Shown here one piece after another: positions 1-45,928 of a stretch of 64,000 nt of DNA. The translations under genes were made by a program, and so were the position numbers. The notes beneath the pieces are model-generated. The model saw only the letters and a list, made by a program, of their open reading frames with translations, ran no database searches and was not told the origin of the DNA. The stretch's first letter is position 1; every line of letters starts with the position of its first letter. Origin of the DNA: Cyanobium sp. Cruz-8D1 (GTDB lineage Bacteria; Cyanobacteriota; Cyanobacteriia; PCC-6307; Cyanobiaceae); the NCBI RefSeq assembly GCF_024345975.1, contig NZ_JAGQCD010000011.1, forward strand, positions 1 to 64,000, given 5' to 3'.

Positions 1-374
1 TCCAAATGCTGCGAAATCGGGCTGTCTGAGCGCTTGAACTGAACCCATCTGACGAAATCACCGAGAAATCAGCTCGGAGATGGGAAAACACGACTGCTTA
101 GACGGTTTTTCCGCAAACTCCTAAATCTATACGCCCAGTATACCCGCTTTGGCCTGCAGCCGTCGCCACCTTCTCTCTAACGTTCCCGCTCAGCCGCGGG
201 CAAGAGCCAATGGTTTTGTTCTTCATCGAGGTTCAATAGATGGCGGACATCGTCGGCTGCAGCGGCTTGCTGGAAGGACCAAACGGATGAGGAAGGAGTT
301 TTGACTATTCTCTTTGCTATGCAGGACATTGGCAGACTCTGGTATTCACAGGAAGAGACCTCATCTGGGATGAG
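1..374. other. Edge region without a recognised gene; possible insertion-sequence end
   Basis: This stretch is more AT-rich than the rest of the window. On the minus strand an ATG at 48-46 opens a frame that runs off the window (MGSVQALRQPDFAAFG, 16 codons). The bases upstream of it (about 95-130, containing GTTTGCGGAAAAACCG on the minus strand) could be the terminal region of an insertion sequence, but I cannot name a family from so little sequence. A small inverted repeat CTCATC/GATGAG (about 362-373) sits just beyond the stop of the Nif11 gene. No other coding signal was seen. Confidence 0.3.
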
Positions 375-680
375 CTAAAAGCAGGAGCAATCACCACCGT
401 AGTGAGAGCATCCGCCTCCTCCAGACGCGCCCCCTTCCTCTCCTCCGCCCCACCAAGACCAGGATGCATCGCTTGGCCTGGCGAAATCAAGATGAAAGGA
501 TTGCTTCCCAATCACGGTGCGGAGCTCTTTTCGATGCGTAGTTACATCTTCAATGGACAAGCGAATGCCATAGAGACTCGCTACTTTGATTGCCTCTTGC
601 ATGTCATTTGCTTTATTAAACAGCGAGCGAAACAGGGGGTCCTTGATTAACTTTTCTTTGAGAATCATTAACTCGCTCAT
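375..680 (-). CDS. Nif11-type RiPP precursor peptide with Gly/Cys-rich core
   Basis: The 101-residue product has the two-part build of Nif11-leader ribosomal peptide precursors. An N-terminal amphipathic leader (residues 1-55) carries the family pattern of acidic/basic helices (LKEKLIKDPLFRSLFNKAN, then IKVASLYGIRLSIEDV). It is followed by a short tail of very different composition: a Trp cluster (SWSWW), runs of glycine, three cysteines and a terminal CSHYGGDCSCF. I chose the ATG at 680 because AAGGTG lies five bases upstream; the longer frame to 770 adds 30 residues that do not resemble a leader. The leader would recruit a modifying enzyme and the tail would be matured and exported. No modification enzyme, protease or transporter is visible, but the gene is 375 bases from the window edge and points towards it. 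The family assignment is from sequence pattern only. Confidence 0.8.
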   Translation of the reverse strand: MSELMILKEKLIKDPLFRSLFNKANDMQEAIKVASLYGIRLSIEDVTTHRKELRTVIGKQSFHLDFARPSDASWSWWGGGEEGGASGGGGCSHYGGDCSCF

Positions 681-1030: not shown

Positions 1031-1435
1031 GTGGTCGTCACGACGCAGCGTCGCCTAGCGCTTCCCTTTGAACTGGTCTACGACCAGGGGCATCCCCAGG
1101 CTGACTTGGCCTGGGCCCGCCAGCCAGCCATCGCTGCTGTGCCGCCCATCGCCTTGCTCTACCTCTACGCCACACCAACCAATGGGCGCCAACAACAGCT
1201 CCTGGCCCAGTTGCTGCCGCTGGCCCCGATGGGGCGATCCCCCAGCCGCGTACAGATGGGTGTCTTTCGTGATACGCCGCGCGGCAGAAGGCTTCTCGCC
1301 GCCCAGCAACAACAACTCCAGGCCTTGGCCATGCCCTACGAACAGGTACGTTTCGTCCCCGGTGCCCCTGTGCCAGCGGCATCGTTTCAGCCACCTGAAT
1401 CCATGTCCCTGCTGCCGGAGTCTGATCTCCGATGA
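1031..1435 (+). CDS. Conserved-looking hypothetical protein, possibly SPOR-like
   Basis: The frame begins at GTG 1031 and encodes 134 residues; no ATG is available, and the frame is open back to 959. Its stop overlaps the start of the next gene by four bases (ATGA), which argues for translation of both. The middle (residues about 40-110: LYLYATPTNGRQQQLLAQLL, then VQMGVFRDTPRGRRLLAAQ) has the alternating beta-strand/helix pattern and the VQ-G-F phrase of SPOR-type repeats found in cyanobacterial envelope proteins. This is a weak resemblance and no function is claimed. The C-terminus is Pro/Ser-rich. Confidence 0.5.
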   Translation: MVVTTQRRLALPFELVYDQGHPQADLAWARQPAIAAVPPIALLYLYATPTNGRQQQLLAQLLPLAPMGRSPSRVQMGVFRDTPRGRRLLAAQQQQLQALAMPYEQVRFVPGAPVPAASFQPPESMSLLPESDLR

Positions 1436-1902
1436 GAGGCCTGGCTTGCATCCGTTGCCGGTTTCCGGGTCTGTTCGCTGCTGGGTTGATTGGCCTGGCT
1501 CTCGCTGCCCCCAGCCAAGCCAGCACATTTGATGTGTTCTGTACGAACAACTCGGATGGCACGCTCACCTGCAGCGGCTGGGATGGGGGCGAGACACTCA
1601 CCTGTGTGAGCAGCCGGGGCCGCACAACCACCTGCTCAACCCCCAGCGGCCGCAGCTTCAGCTGTGTGCAAGGGCTGGGGGGAGTGCTCTCCTGTGGCAA
1701 CCCAGACCGGGGCACCATGCGCGGGGATGGACCGCGCTGTGTGCCTGCAGGCGACGGCACCTTGGTCTGTGACGAAGACGATCCCCCCAGTGAGCCGCTG
1801 CTGCGGGCACCGGCGGTCCCAGGCAGCATGGCCCCGTTCATGGGGCCCAGCATGGATCTGCTTCGGCCCGATTCCCTCACGATCCCAAGCCTGTTTGATT
1901 GA
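1432..1902 (+). CDS. Small secreted cysteine-rich protein, function unknown
   Basis: 156 residues with a Sec-type signal peptide (positive MRGLACIRCRF, hydrophobic GLFAAGLIGLALAA, likely cleavage after ASQAS-like residues near 31). The mature part carries short repeating units of the form T-C-S/V spaced 12-16 residues (LTCSGWDG, LTCVSSRG, TTCSTPSG, FSCVQGLG, LSCGNPD), then an acidic stretch (VCDEDDPPSE) and a Pro-rich tail. The repeats suggest a small beta-rich disulphide or metal-binding exported protein. It overlaps the preceding gene by four bases. No family recognised. Confidence 0.6.
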   Translation: MRGLACIRCRFPGLFAAGLIGLALAAPSQASTFDVFCTNNSDGTLTCSGWDGGETLTCVSSRGRTTTCSTPSGRSFSCVQGLGGVLSCGNPDRGTMRGDGPRCVPAGDGTLVCDEDDPPSEPLLRAPAVPGSMAPFMGPSMDLLRPDSLTIPSLFD

Positions 1903-28038: not shown

Positions 28039-30333
28039 GTGGAATCTGGGGCCCCCGATGCTGCACCCCGTCCAGAGCCCGGCCTCCCCGGCCAGGGCGG
28101 CGGCTGGCCCCTGATCGAGGGCTGGGCCCGCGCCACCCTGACCCCCCAGGGCCCCAAGCTCTGGCAGACCCTCAACCACCGCAGCGCCTGCCTCTCCTGC
28201 GCCTGGGGCACCGGCGGGCAGCACGGCGGTTTCCGTGACGAGCTGGGGGAGCCGCTGCAGCGCTGCCTCAAGAGCGTCGAGGCGATCATGGCCGAGCTGC
28301 AGCCGGCCGTACCCGACGGCGTCTTCGCCAGCCGCAGCCTCGCCGAGCTGCAGGCCCTGAGCTCGATGCAGGCCGACCGCCTCGGCCGCCTCAGCCATCC
28401 CCTGCTGCTGCGGGAGGGCCGCAGCCACTACGAGCGCATCGGCTGGGACGACGTGTTCGCCATCGCCGCGGCCGCCTTCCGGCGCCCGCCGGAGCGGGTG
28501 GCCTCCTACAGCTCGGGGCGCTCCTCCAACGAGGCGGCCTACCTGCTGCAGCTGCTGCTGCGGGCCATGGGCTCCAACAACCTGGCCGACTGCTCCGACC
28601 TCTGCCACGCCCCCTCCACCGTGGGGCTCAATGCCGTCTTCGGCTCCGGCACCTCGATGGTGAGCCTGGAGAGCCTGCAGCAGGCGGATTGTGTGGTGCT
28701 GGTGGGCTCCAACGCCCCGGCCAACCACCCACGGCTGATGAACGAGCTGATCAAGCTGCGCCAGCGGGGCGGCTCGGTGGTCGTCATCAACCCGGTGATC
28801 GAGGTGGGGCTGCTGAAGTTCGGCTCGCCGGCCTTCCCGGTCTCGTCGCTGCGGGGGGGCGCGGACATCGCTTCGCTGTTCCTGCAGCCCGTGCCGGGCA
28901 GCGACACGGCCGTGTTCCTGGGGCTGCAGAAGGCCCTGCTGGAGGCCGGCGCCGTCAAGCGCGACTTCCTGGCCGCCCATACCGAGGGCTGGGAGGCGCT
29001 GCTGGAGCAGCTGGAGGCCACCCCCTGGGAGGCGATCACCGCCAGCTGCGGCCTCAGCCGCCGGGAGCTGGAGCACGCCGCCGCCGTGGTCGCCGCGGCC
29101 CGGGGCGTGGTGTTCGCCTGGGCGATGGGCATCACCCACCACGCCAACGGCATCGACAACGTGCAGGCGATCGCCAACACTGCCCTGCTCAGCGGCAACG
29201 TCGGCCGGCCCGGCGCCGGCACCATGCCGATCCGGGGCCACTCCAACGTGCAGGGCTTCGGCTCGATGGGGGTCAGCGTCAAGCTGCGGGCGGAGATGCA
29301 GCAGGCCCTGGAGCAGCTGCTGGGGCGGCCCCTGAGCCGGGTGCCCGGCTACGACACCCGCGCCCTGATCGAGGCCGCCGCTGCCGGCCGGGTCGACACC
29401 CTGCTCTGCCTGGGGGGCAACCTCTGGGGCGCCAACCCCGACAGCGGCGAGGCGAAGCGGGCCCTGGGCCGCATCGACACGATCCTGTACCTGGCCACCA
29501 AGCCCAACCAGGGCCATTTCCACGGCCTGGCGGCCCGCCAGACCCTGGTGCTGCCGGTGTTCAACCGCTTCGAGACGCCGCACCGCACCACCACCGAATC
29601 GGGCAACAACTACGTGCGCCTCAACGAGCCGGGCTCCACCCACCTGGGCGGCGCCGACCTGATCAGCGAGGTGGCGTTCCTGGCCGAGCTGGCCCGGCGC
29701 CGGATGGGCAGCGATCCGATCGACTGGGGGCGGCTGCAGGATCCGTCCTACGTGCGGGACCTGATCGGCCGCACCGTGCCCGGCTACGGCCCGATCGCCC
29801 GCATCGATGCCACCCGGCAGGAGTTCAGCGTCGAGGGACGTCTGTTCGACAGCCCAACCTTCCCCACCCCCAGCGGCCGGGCCCGGGTGGCGCCCACCCC
29901 CCTGCCCGAACTCACGCTGCCGGAGGCGGAGCACTTCGGCGGCCTCGGGCCCGGGGAAACCGGCCTGGTGCTGGCCCTGATCACGGCCCGCAGCTATGGC
30001 CAGCACAACACCGTCGTCTACAAGGCCGGCGACAGCTACCGGGGCATGCCCCACCGCCACACGATCCTGATGAACCGCGCCGACCTGCGCCGCTGCGGCC
30101 TGGCGGCCCACCAGCGGGTGACGGTGCAGGGGGAGGCGGGCGCCCTTGAGGGGGTGGAGATCATCCCCGGCGAGATCCGCGAGGGCGCGGCGCTGATGTT
30201 CTACCCGGAGGTGAACGTGATCATGAAGGCCGTGGTCGACCCCCGCTGCGGCACCCCCGCCTTCAAGCGGGTGCCGGTGCTGGTGAAGGGGCCAGTGGCT
30301 CCAGCGCCCGGAGCCGCTCAGCCCCCCAAGTAG
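28039..30333 (+). CDS. FdhF/YdeP-family molybdopterin oxidoreductase
   Basis: 764 residues of the molybdopterin oxidoreductase fold. N-terminal RSACLSCAWGTGGQHGGF (about residue 50) corresponds to the CxxCAW region of YdeP, not to the four-Cys iron-sulphur motif of nitrate reductase NarB. Further marks: ASYSSGRSSNEAAYLLQLL, NNLADCSDLCHAPSTVGL, INPVIEVGLLKFGSP, LLSGNVGRPGAGTMPIRGH, SNVQGFGSMG and C-terminal ARSYGQHNTVVYKAGDSYRG with NRADLRRCGLAAHQRVTVQG. YdeP-type enzymes are tied to acid resistance in enterics but lack a proven substrate. Its end overlaps moaA by 16 bases on the other strand; moaA and mobA make the cofactor it would need. Confidence 0.88.
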   Translation: MESGAPDAAPRPEPGLPGQGGGWPLIEGWARATLTPQGPKLWQTLNHRSACLSCAWGTGGQHGGFRDELGEPLQRCLKSVEAIMAELQPAVPDGVFASRSLAELQALSSMQADRLGRLSHPLLLREGRSHYERIGWDDVFAIAAAAFRRPPERVASYSSGRSSNEAAYLLQLLLRAMGSNNLADCSDLCHAPSTVGLNAVFGSGTSMVSLESLQQADCVVLVGSNAPANHPRLMNELIKLRQRGGSVVVINPVIEVGLLKFGSPAFPVSSLRGGADIASLFLQPVPGSDTAVFLGLQKALLEAGAVKRDFLAAHTEGWEALLEQLEATPWEAITASCGLSRRELEHAAAVVAAARGVVFAWAMGITHHANGIDNVQAIANTALLSGNVGRPGAGTMPIRGHSNVQGFGSMGVSVKLRAEMQQALEQLLGRPLSRVPGYDTRALIEAAAAGRVDTLLCLGGNLWGANPDSGEAKRALGRIDTILYLATKPNQGHFHGLAARQTLVLPVFNRFETPHRTTTESGNNYVRLNEPGSTHLGGADLISEVAFLAELARRRMGSDPIDWGRLQDPSYVRDLIGRTVPGYGPIARIDATRQEFSVEGRLFDSPTFPTPSGRARVAPTPLPELTLPEAEHFGGLGPGETGLVLALITARSYGQHNTVVYKAGDSYRGMPHRHTILMNRADLRRCGLAAHQRVTVQGEAGALEGVEIIPGEIREGAALMFYPEVNVIMKAVVDPRCGTPAFKRVPVLVKGPVAPAPGAAQPPK

Positions 30334-31370
30334 GCCATCTCGGGCGGTGCCGGGCGGTGCTCGGCCGCTTCCTGCCGCTCCTCGCTCCAGCGATCACGGC
30401 GGGCGTGCCACAGACCCGCCAGCGCCTCGTGCAGCAGGCCCGGCTCGGGCCGGGGCCGCAGCCAGGGCTTCAGGTCGGTGCCGTTGGCGGCGAACAGGCA
30501 GCTGTAGGCCACCCCATCGGCGGTGATCCGCAGCCGGTTGCAGTCGCCGCAGAAGGGCGCCGTGATCGAAGCCACCACCGCCAGGTGCAGCCCGTCCCGG
30601 TCGCGGTAGCGCCAGCGGCTGGCGGTGCCATGGGGGGAGCGGCCCACCGGCTCCAACGGCCAGGCCGCCCCGATGCGGGCCACCATCTCGGCGGCCGGCA
30701 GCACCTGCTCCGGCAGCCAGCCGTTGCGGTTGCCCACGTCCATGAATTCGATCAGGCGCAGCTCCAGCCCCTGCTGCCGGGCCAGCTCCGCGAGGGGCAG
30801 CAGCTGGTCGGCATTGCCTGAGCGGGTGATCACCGCATTCAGCTTCAGCTCACCACGGGCCGGATCGAAGCCGGCCTCTCTGGCGTGGCGAATCGCCGCC
30901 AGCACCTTTTCCAGCACCGCACCACCGGCGGCCGCACCCGCCAAGCCAGCCATGCGGGCCACGCTGGCCCCATCGGTGCCATCGAGGCTGAGGGTGATCC
31001 GGTCGAGGCCCGCCGCCTTCAGCTGCCGGGCCCGATCGGCACTGAGCAGCACCCCGTTGCTGGTGAGGGCGAGCTCCCGCAGGGCACCGCGGGGATCGTT
31101 GGGGTCCCGCCGCCGCAGTGGCTGCAGGGCGGCGATCAGCGCCTCCAGCTGCCGGTGCAGCAGGGGTTCGCCGCCGGTGAGGCGCAGGGTGTGCACCCCC
31201 AGGCCCACGCTGGTCTCCACCAGGGCCAGCCGTTCCGGCAGGGTCAGCAGGTCGGGCGGGTCCTCGAGATCGGGGCAGCAGTAGGGGCAGGCCAGGTTGC
31301 AGCGGGCCGTGAGCGACAGCCGCAGCACCCCCAGGGGCCGGCCATGCAGATCCAGGGGACGCTCCGCCAT
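30318..31370 (-). CDS. moaA: GTP 3',8-cyclase MoaA
   Basis: 350 residues. Radical-SAM cysteines CNLACPYC (about residues 23-30) and the second C-terminal cluster in FCGDCNRLRITADGVAYSC (about 268-287), as required for the family; also LRLTGGEPLLHRQLEALI and LRLIEFMDVGNRNGW. First step of molybdenum cofactor synthesis, converting GTP to the cyclic precursor with MoaC. ATG 31370 chosen; the frame upstream is antisense/overlap of mobA. Ten bases after mobA in a mobA-first operon with narM. Confidence 0.95.
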   Translation of the reverse strand: MAERPLDLHGRPLGVLRLSLTARCNLACPYCCPDLEDPPDLLTLPERLALVETSVGLGVHTLRLTGGEPLLHRQLEALIAALQPLRRRDPNDPRGALRELALTSNGVLLSADRARQLKAAGLDRITLSLDGTDGASVARMAGLAGAAAGGAVLEKVLAAIRHAREAGFDPARGELKLNAVITRSGNADQLLPLAELARQQGLELRLIEFMDVGNRNGWLPEQVLPAAEMVARIGAAWPLEPVGRSPHGTASRWRYRDRDGLHLAVVASITAPFCGDCNRLRITADGVAYSCLFAANGTDLKPWLRPRPEPGLLHEALAGLWHARRDRWSEERQEAAEHRPAPPEMAYLGG

Positions 31371-31380
31371 GGCAGGAAAG

Positions 31381-31983
31381 CTAGGGCCACAGGCCGGTGG
31401 CGTCGTCGGGTCGGTTGGCATTGCGCAGGCCCGCCGGCGGCAGCGGCACCGCCACCACCGCTTCCCCGGCCAGCCAATCCTGGAGCCGCCGGCCGCCGGC
31501 CACCGTGAAGGCACGCAGCCCCTGGCGGCGGCTGGCGTGGGCGGGATAGACCCCCAGCAGCGGCTGCAGCCGCTGGCCGTCATGGGCCAGGTGGATGGCC
31601 ACTGGGCCCGTCGGGATCATGGCGGCAGCGACCAGCGCCTTGAGGGCGGCCGTCTGCAGCCAGGGCATGTCCACAGCGCAGAGCAGCAGGTGCTGGTCCC
31701 GGTGGTGCTGCATCAACCGGTCGAGAGCCAGCAGCGGCCCTTGCCGCGGTGGCGGCTCCTCCAGGACGGTGATCGCCTCGCCCAGCCCGTCCCGCAGGGG
31801 CTGGGCGAGGGCCAGGTGGGCCCGGTGGTGGCTGACCAGGGTGATCGGCAGCGGCAACGCCGCCAGCTGGGCCAGGCTGAATTCCAGCCAGGTGCCACCG
31901 GCGGGATGGGGCAGCAGGGCCTTGTCCGTGCCCATGCGGCGGCTGGCACCGCCGCTGAGCAGGCAGGCCCGCAGGCCGCTCAT
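31381..31983 (-). CDS. mobA: Molybdenum cofactor guanylyltransferase MobA
   Basis: 200 residues of the nucleotidyltransferase fold. Signature LLSGGASRRMGTDKALLPH (residues 8-26) binds GTP, followed by ITVLEEPPPRQGPLLALD and LLLCAVDMPWLQTAALKAL (the DMP metal-site motif) and LQPLLGVYPAHASRRQG. It attaches GMP to molybdopterin, giving the bis-MGD form used by nitrate reductase and YdeP-type enzymes. The ATG at 31983 overlaps the narM stop by four bases. Length agrees with the family. Confidence 0.93.
   Translation of the reverse strand: MSGLRACLLSGGASRRMGTDKALLPHPAGGTWLEFSLAQLAALPLPITLVSHHRAHLALAQPLRDGLGEAITVLEEPPPRQGPLLALDRLMQHHRDQHLLLCAVDMPWLQTAALKALVAAAMIPTGPVAIHLAHDGQRLQPLLGVYPAHASRRQGLRAFTVAGGRRLQDWLAGEAVVAVPLPPAGLRNANRPDDATGLWP

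Positions 31984-44203: not shown

Positions 44204-45928
<1,725 letters not shown>

Follow-up and report, generated by a model that had tools for sequence, protein, structure and literature searches.

A putative, divergent Nif11-type precursor gene without a visible pathway beside an insertion sequence in Cyanobium sp. Cruz-8D1

We studied a small open reading frame (ORF), P0001, near the left end of contig NZ_JAGQCD010000011.1 of Cyanobium sp. Cruz-8D1 (assembly GCF_024345975.1), within a stretch of 64,000 nucleotides that was analysed as a whole and is called the window here. P0001 occupies positions 375 to 680 of the minus strand and encodes a 101-residue, Nif11-like, precursor-type protein that starts with MSELMILK and ends with CSHYGGDCSCF. 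Profiles, a phmmer alignment and structure prediction divide it into a leader-like region (residues 1-59; 504-680, minus strand), which closes with Gly58-Lys59 (504-509, minus strand) at the place of the Gly-Gly that ends such leaders, and a Trp-, Gly-, Ser- and Cys-rich tail (residues 60-101 plus the stop codon; 375-503, minus strand). The frame extends upstream, open to 797 and with a second ATG at 770; the ATG at 680 was preferred as the start because AAGG, a possible ribosome-binding site on the same strand (688-691), lies 7 nt before it and because the Nif11 similarity begins close behind it. No sigma-70-like promoter was seen for P0001, and the single terminator-like site nearby is on the opposite strand. 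GC content is 48-56% in windows around P0001 versus 66-75% to the right of about 1.7 kb, in agreement with the AT-richer stretch reported by a first-pass annotation made from the sequence alone, which had also correctly described the 101-residue ORF, its Gly/Trp/Cys tail, the HYG triplet and the three cysteines. From the sequence, we read P0001 as a singleton, divergent, stranded Nif11-type precursor without a visible pathway and of putative function, an interpretation in which we place about half of our confidence.

The likeness of P0001 to Nif11 proteins shows only with profiles built from this genome's own Nif11 sequences and in one pairwise match. Against a profile of 12 such sequences, P0001 scores 7.9 bits, where the best of 2000 leader shuffles reaches 4.5. 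A phmmer search of 400 genomes of the family returned two non-self matches below 0.001, the best of which (E 1.2e-4 per genome) is a Nif11 precursor, L130, that itself passes PF07862 and TIGR03798 (56.6 bits, cut-off 32.3). The two proteins are 28% identical across residues 7-94, the alignment being in register from residue 7 onward, and the score of 19.9 bits for P0001 against L130 exceeds the best of 5000 leader shuffles (7.8 bits) and ranks first among 1710 ORFs taken from the window and five stretches of the same genome. By eye, ELRTVIGK of P0001 aligns on ELESVVGG of L130, with Gly-Gly changed to Gly-Lys; a Gly-Gly motif is thus not present at the leader end, and the later GG runs sit within the Gly-rich tail. 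With L130 added to the profile (13 sequences), P0001 scores 9.6 bits. AlphaFold2, run on the single sequence with no alignment, predicted helices at residues 3-13, 15-22, 27-36, 43-48, and 50-57 (mean pLDDT 66; blocks of 78-88 over residues 1-50, 64 over 51-60, and 44-51 after), and a disordered tail lacking structure after residue 57. Foldseek searches with this model gave 11 matches, the best only at E 0.97, while in a second fold comparison the Nif11 leader structure 9zn4 came second (Z 3.5, rmsd 4.0, 57 aligned), a match that we gave no weight because an unrelated protein ranks ahead of it at Z 4.7. Combined, the shuffle tests and the predicted helices make a Nif11-type leader in P0001 probable.

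The 42-residue tail contains 11 Gly, 7 Ser, 3 Trp, 3 Cys, and one Tyr, with no Asn and no Thr. Its cysteines (C91, C98, and C100) form, together with H93, the pattern C-x-H-x4-C-x-C. The HYG triplet (residues 93-95; 396-404, minus strand), which the first-pass annotation had singled out as an XYG element of the kind processed by radical-SAM spliceases, is not beyond chance, since YG occurs in 25.5% of 100,000 tail shuffles, and the best match of the splicease model TIGR04103 in this genome (25.6 bits against a cut-off of 725; window 30933-31316) is MoaA.

The genome (3.97 Mb in 108 contigs, rated 100% complete) was searched for the enzymes that would mature or export a ribosomally synthesized and post-translationally modified peptide (RiPP). 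Neither LanC-like (PF05147) nor Peptidase_C39 models gave a match genome-wide at E 0.01, and a lanthipeptide and a C39-exported peptide were rejected on this result. The SPASM search returned one match, below the cut-off, namely GrrM (TIGR04261, 571 bits) on another contig, C76; as the SPASM model scored this true member below its cut-off, it is not exhaustive for radical-SAM maturases. Within the window, the MoaA gene (30318-31583) is the only match in the LanC-like, SPASM, C39, and splicease searches. No RiPP enzyme partner was thus found by these four models, which cover neither YcaO nor other tailoring enzymes. The earlier description of P0001 as isolated from any enzyme in the window therefore holds for the RiPP enzymes covered by these genome-wide searches, the window's proteins not having all been scanned. 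Members of the N11P family (TIGR03798) occur elsewhere in genomes with an unlinked LanM (PMC2887384, in the part available), so the mere separation of a precursor from its enzyme proves little; in this genome, the LanC-like search came back empty altogether.

To the left, the contig breaks inside the right end of a multi-copy insertion sequence (positions 1-120, plus strand), which is followed by CTAA (121-124), presumably its target-site duplication. Positions 1-124 recur at nine other places in the genome at 96-100% identity. Judged by locus coordinates and lengths, eight of these copies lie no more than about 650 bases from the end of a contig. Part of a DDE transposase (PF01609, 6.5e-12) is encoded in a longer copy, and the element may be of the IS5 type. 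The other end of the insertion with CTAA is found on three contig ends (C30, C37, and C54), and right ends with CTAA number four (the window, two on C65, and one on C88), so CTAA alone cannot fix the left contig. In a synteny test using the first or last 20 kb of C30, C37, and C54, C37 matched, in the right orientation, DNA upstream of a diacylglycerol-kinase-like gene in five of six stretches from relatives (one match spanning just 84 bases; the stretch without a match is 3 kb long), whereas C30 and C54 gave no match in these stretches at E 1e-20. Because only C37 matches, we infer that it is the left neighbour of the window. The order leftward from P0001 would then be the insertion sequence, mazE (NF007312, 1.9e-9, below cut-off), mazF (PF02452, 1.1e-23), and a bile-acid-symporter-type gene, with, among others further along, a sulfite exporter, a sigma-70 factor with an RskA-type protein, a phosphate transporter, and a class I tRNA synthetase. 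A crude caller found 24 ORFs in the first 20 kb of this 29.6-kb contig; neither the 23 of them scanned in Pfam nor nine further frames, missed or outvoted by the caller and including mazE, that were scanned in Pfam (eight also in NCBIfam) matched a RiPP enzyme. A 2OG-Fe(II) oxygenase-type protein at 14.1-14.8 kb, some 14 kb from P0001, does not suggest itself as a partner. The suggestion that a modifying enzyme lies left of position 1 thus fails as far as the flank was read, since an insertion-sequence end, mazE, mazF, and ordinary genes stand there, and a biosynthetic cluster in the missing left flank is very unlikely. The whole spot, between about position 1165 of C37 and about 1948 of the window, is variable, with one relative (G026) carrying about 6 kb of other DNA there.

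Several observations on this element stand apart from P0001. The mazE and mazF genes (locus L060, 131-732, plus strand, contig C37) begin about 11 bases after the insertion sequence ends, as the mazE start was set, and the insertion may have cut the pair from its promoter. The element breaks many contigs of the assembly and is found at the ends of contigs C22, C30, C37, C48, C50, C54, C55, C65, C69, C81, C88, and C89; its duplications are mostly YTAR-like and 4 bp long, and with synteny they could pair contig ends of this assembly.

No homologue with the P0001 tail was found in viral_contigs, genome_contigs, plasmids, phages, 99 relatives, or 400 family genomes; the two protein scans of collections relied on exact peptide patterns, which reach close relatives only. 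The core pattern hit one stretch in viral_contigs, with no leader-like frame seen, and 11 in genome_contigs, mostly short unrelated frames without a Nif11 leader in the residues printed. Phages gave one match (E 0.5, residues 15-54) without an annotated gene; P0001's own genome gave two short weak frames only; the 99 relatives gave three weak non-Nif11 matches, namely an ORF that looks recombinase-like by eye and two frames with stops; and PDB sequences gave Gly linkers and other chance matches (best E 0.38). Used as a query in its turn, L130 had no match in plasmids or viral_contigs. The six relatives' stretches (971 frames, one stretch of only 3 kb) held no convincing P0001-like frame (best 7.1 bits, E 0.37) and no convincing Nif11-like frame (best 5.5 bits). 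No account of the peptide was found in the literature listings searched or in the available parts of PMC2887384, PMC10533398, PMC10783134, and PMC12715784. The first-pass annotation had named, as what would speak against it, no modification or export enzyme within about 20 kb in any strain carrying the gene and no conservation of the core; this is largely what we see, though not fully, as YcaO was not searched for and no other carrier was found.

Against the interpretation of P0001 as a Nif11-type precursor weigh a number of results. P0001 has no Pfam or NCBIfam match at an E limit of 10 and stays below every curated cut-off, including PF07862 and TIGR03798, the search with a Nif11-leader model that had been proposed as a check; HMMER filters discard most weak matches even at this limit. 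A genome search with PF07862 at E 10 found 17 places, 10 of them over the cut-off, and P0001 is not among them. It follows that the "clear" Nif11-type leader of the earlier description has to be scaled back to a weak likeness, visible with own-genome profiles and L130 and matched by no curated model. The 12-sequence profile ranks P0001 third of the 1710 ORFs (E 0.58), behind one training member and one unrelated frame, while leave-one-out scores of true Nif11 members run from 12 to 75 bits. For L130, an E of 1.2e-4 per genome becomes about 0.05 once all 400 genomes are counted; L130 was itself chosen by this search; and the next match, at 4.2e-4, is spurious, a frame running antisense to what by eye looks like the ORF of a dihydrolipoamide-dehydrogenase-like protein. 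With the 13-sequence profile, one of 5000 shuffles beats P0001 (9.7 vs. 9.6 bits), and P0001 ranks second (E 0.19). The length of the ORF is within chance, as an ATG-initiated ORF of at least 101 residues arises in 292 of 1000 dinucleotide shuffles of positions 125-1030 (and one of at least 131 residues in 108); no orthologue was found in which purifying selection would show; and the placement of C37 comes from synteny and CTAA, not from sequence running through the junction.

Set against these points, the precursor interpretation would hold that a flexible Trp/Gly/Ser/Cys tail follows a helical leader of Nif11 type, which spans residues 1 to about 59 and has its Gly-Gly degenerated to Gly-Lys. 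Had P0001 ever served as a RiPP precursor, the leader would have been the docking site of an enzyme that altered the tail in trans; P0001 would now lack any visible partner, at a variable site next to an insertion sequence and mazEF. Most likely P0001 represents no new natural-product system but a stranded or relic precursor, and most likely it yields no mature product or has its tail altered only by disulphide formation. We infer that it is expressed and was once a precursor, now a relic.

A different view, possible if unlikely, is that P0001 is not a precursor but an intracellular Nif11-domain protein whose Gly-rich tail ends in a metal-binding or disulphide site. C91, H93, C98, and C100 are indeed grouped at the end of a flexible Gly-rich stretch, the genome offers no LanC-like or C39 match, and Nif11-domain proteins here are often not precursors, 28 of 29 best-match loci in the genus ending in ...PGEY and none of the genome's own Nif11 frames that were read having a Cys-rich tail. 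Yet no relative has the Cys/His pattern (the 11 matches in genome_contigs being those mostly short, unrelated frames), and P0001 matches no binding family. The genus-wide PF07862 search returned essentially one conserved Nif11 protein as loci and brought no broadening of the profile. Across 29 genus genomes (L063-L091), the best Nif11 locus is in 28 cases a short conserved protein ending in ...PGEY plus one residue, and in the remaining one has a broken end; the conserved protein probably has a housekeeping role and is no precursor.

It is likewise doubtful that P0001 is a chance or decaying frame in an accessory, insertion-ridden spot, with a coincidental likeness to Nif11. The unremarkable ORF length, the missing curated match, sigma-70-like promoter, and orthologue (in the collections searched) all fit such a frame, whereas the leader similarity exceeds all shuffles in two tests and in a third is beaten by one of 5000, structure prediction from the single sequence gives a helical leader and a disordered tail, and AAGG is in place. 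Quite improbable is that P0001 works as a Nif11-led peptide whose Trp/Gly/Cys core is new, either matured in trans, without LanC-like, C39, or splicease proteins, by an enzyme so far without a link to Nif11 leaders, or binding metal through C-x-H-x4-C-x-C.

GrrA peptides carry an aromatic-x-Asn repeat motif. That the genome's cyclophane maturase, GrrM, acts in trans on P0001 is very improbable: no SPASM protein other than GrrM was found, and Gly and aromatic residues abound in the tail, but GrrM sits directly behind its own Gly-rich GrrA-like protein with WGN and FRN repeats (locus L133, 7392-8995, plus strand, contig C76), and the P0001 tail has no Asn and its leader differs. Least credible of all is a spliceotide precursor from which a radical-SAM splicease would excise tyramine at HYG, which the weak Nif11-type leader, the XYG triplet, and the acceptance of an engineered GYG site by PlpXY, such that X is not strictly fixed (PMC10533398, in the part available), would favour, and which we rejected because no splicease was found in this genome and YG is at chance level.

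Compared with known systems, the stranded precursor favoured here resembles L130 (contig C39), whose leader is in register and whose end contains Gly and Cys, and on whose 9-kb contig no RiPP enzyme was recognised (four of the 10 called ORFs in Pfam, the rest by eye); L130, however, keeps VVGG and passes TIGR03798 and PF07862, and its core is unrelated. For N11P (Haft, Basu and Mitchell 2010, PMC2887384), the available part gives the motif ELSDEELEAVAGG and, in the paper's table, leader and suffix lengths of 69 and 23, versus about 59 and 42 in P0001. The ELxxVxG leader end is recognisable in P0001 by eye, but P0001 is below the curated cut-off, has Gly-Lys for Gly-Gly, and has no LanM-type or peptidase-transporter partner found. 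Prochlorosins and synechococsins, ProcM-type lanthipeptides, share a picocyanobacterial Nif11-type leader and Ser and Cys in the core (PMC10783134, as far as available), whereas the P0001 genome has no LanC-like match and its leader end no Gly-Gly. Spliceotides of the PlpA/PlpXY kind (PMC10533398, likewise in part) have the XYG triplet in common with P0001, which differs in having His before YG at chance level and no splicease found. The GrrA/GrrM cyclophane peptides differ in their Asn and in the location of GrrM on C76. The PlpA leader is also of Nif11 type. If expressed, P0001 would add another orphan to the Nif11 genes of picocyanobacteria, a precursor-like gene apart from enzymes and with its Gly-Gly site lost; the practical value is mostly negative, in that a candidate spliceotide and lanthipeptide is removed.

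Three further features were recorded. The end of contig C32, which nothing links to the window, was read for its two-part Nif11 protein, a 189-residue protein (locus L035, 15370-15939, minus strand) with two Nif11-like stretches and no obvious core (PF07862, 32 bits; TIGR03798, 28.7 bits, below cut-off). In the window, a 156-residue, Ser/Cys-rich ORF (1432-1902, plus strand) begins, by eye, like a signal peptide and matches nothing in Pfam or NCBIfam, and the 5' ureB small RNA (Rfam RF02514, 150 bits) lies at 45487-45777 on the plus strand, opposite a called ORF at 44204-45928 on the minus strand.
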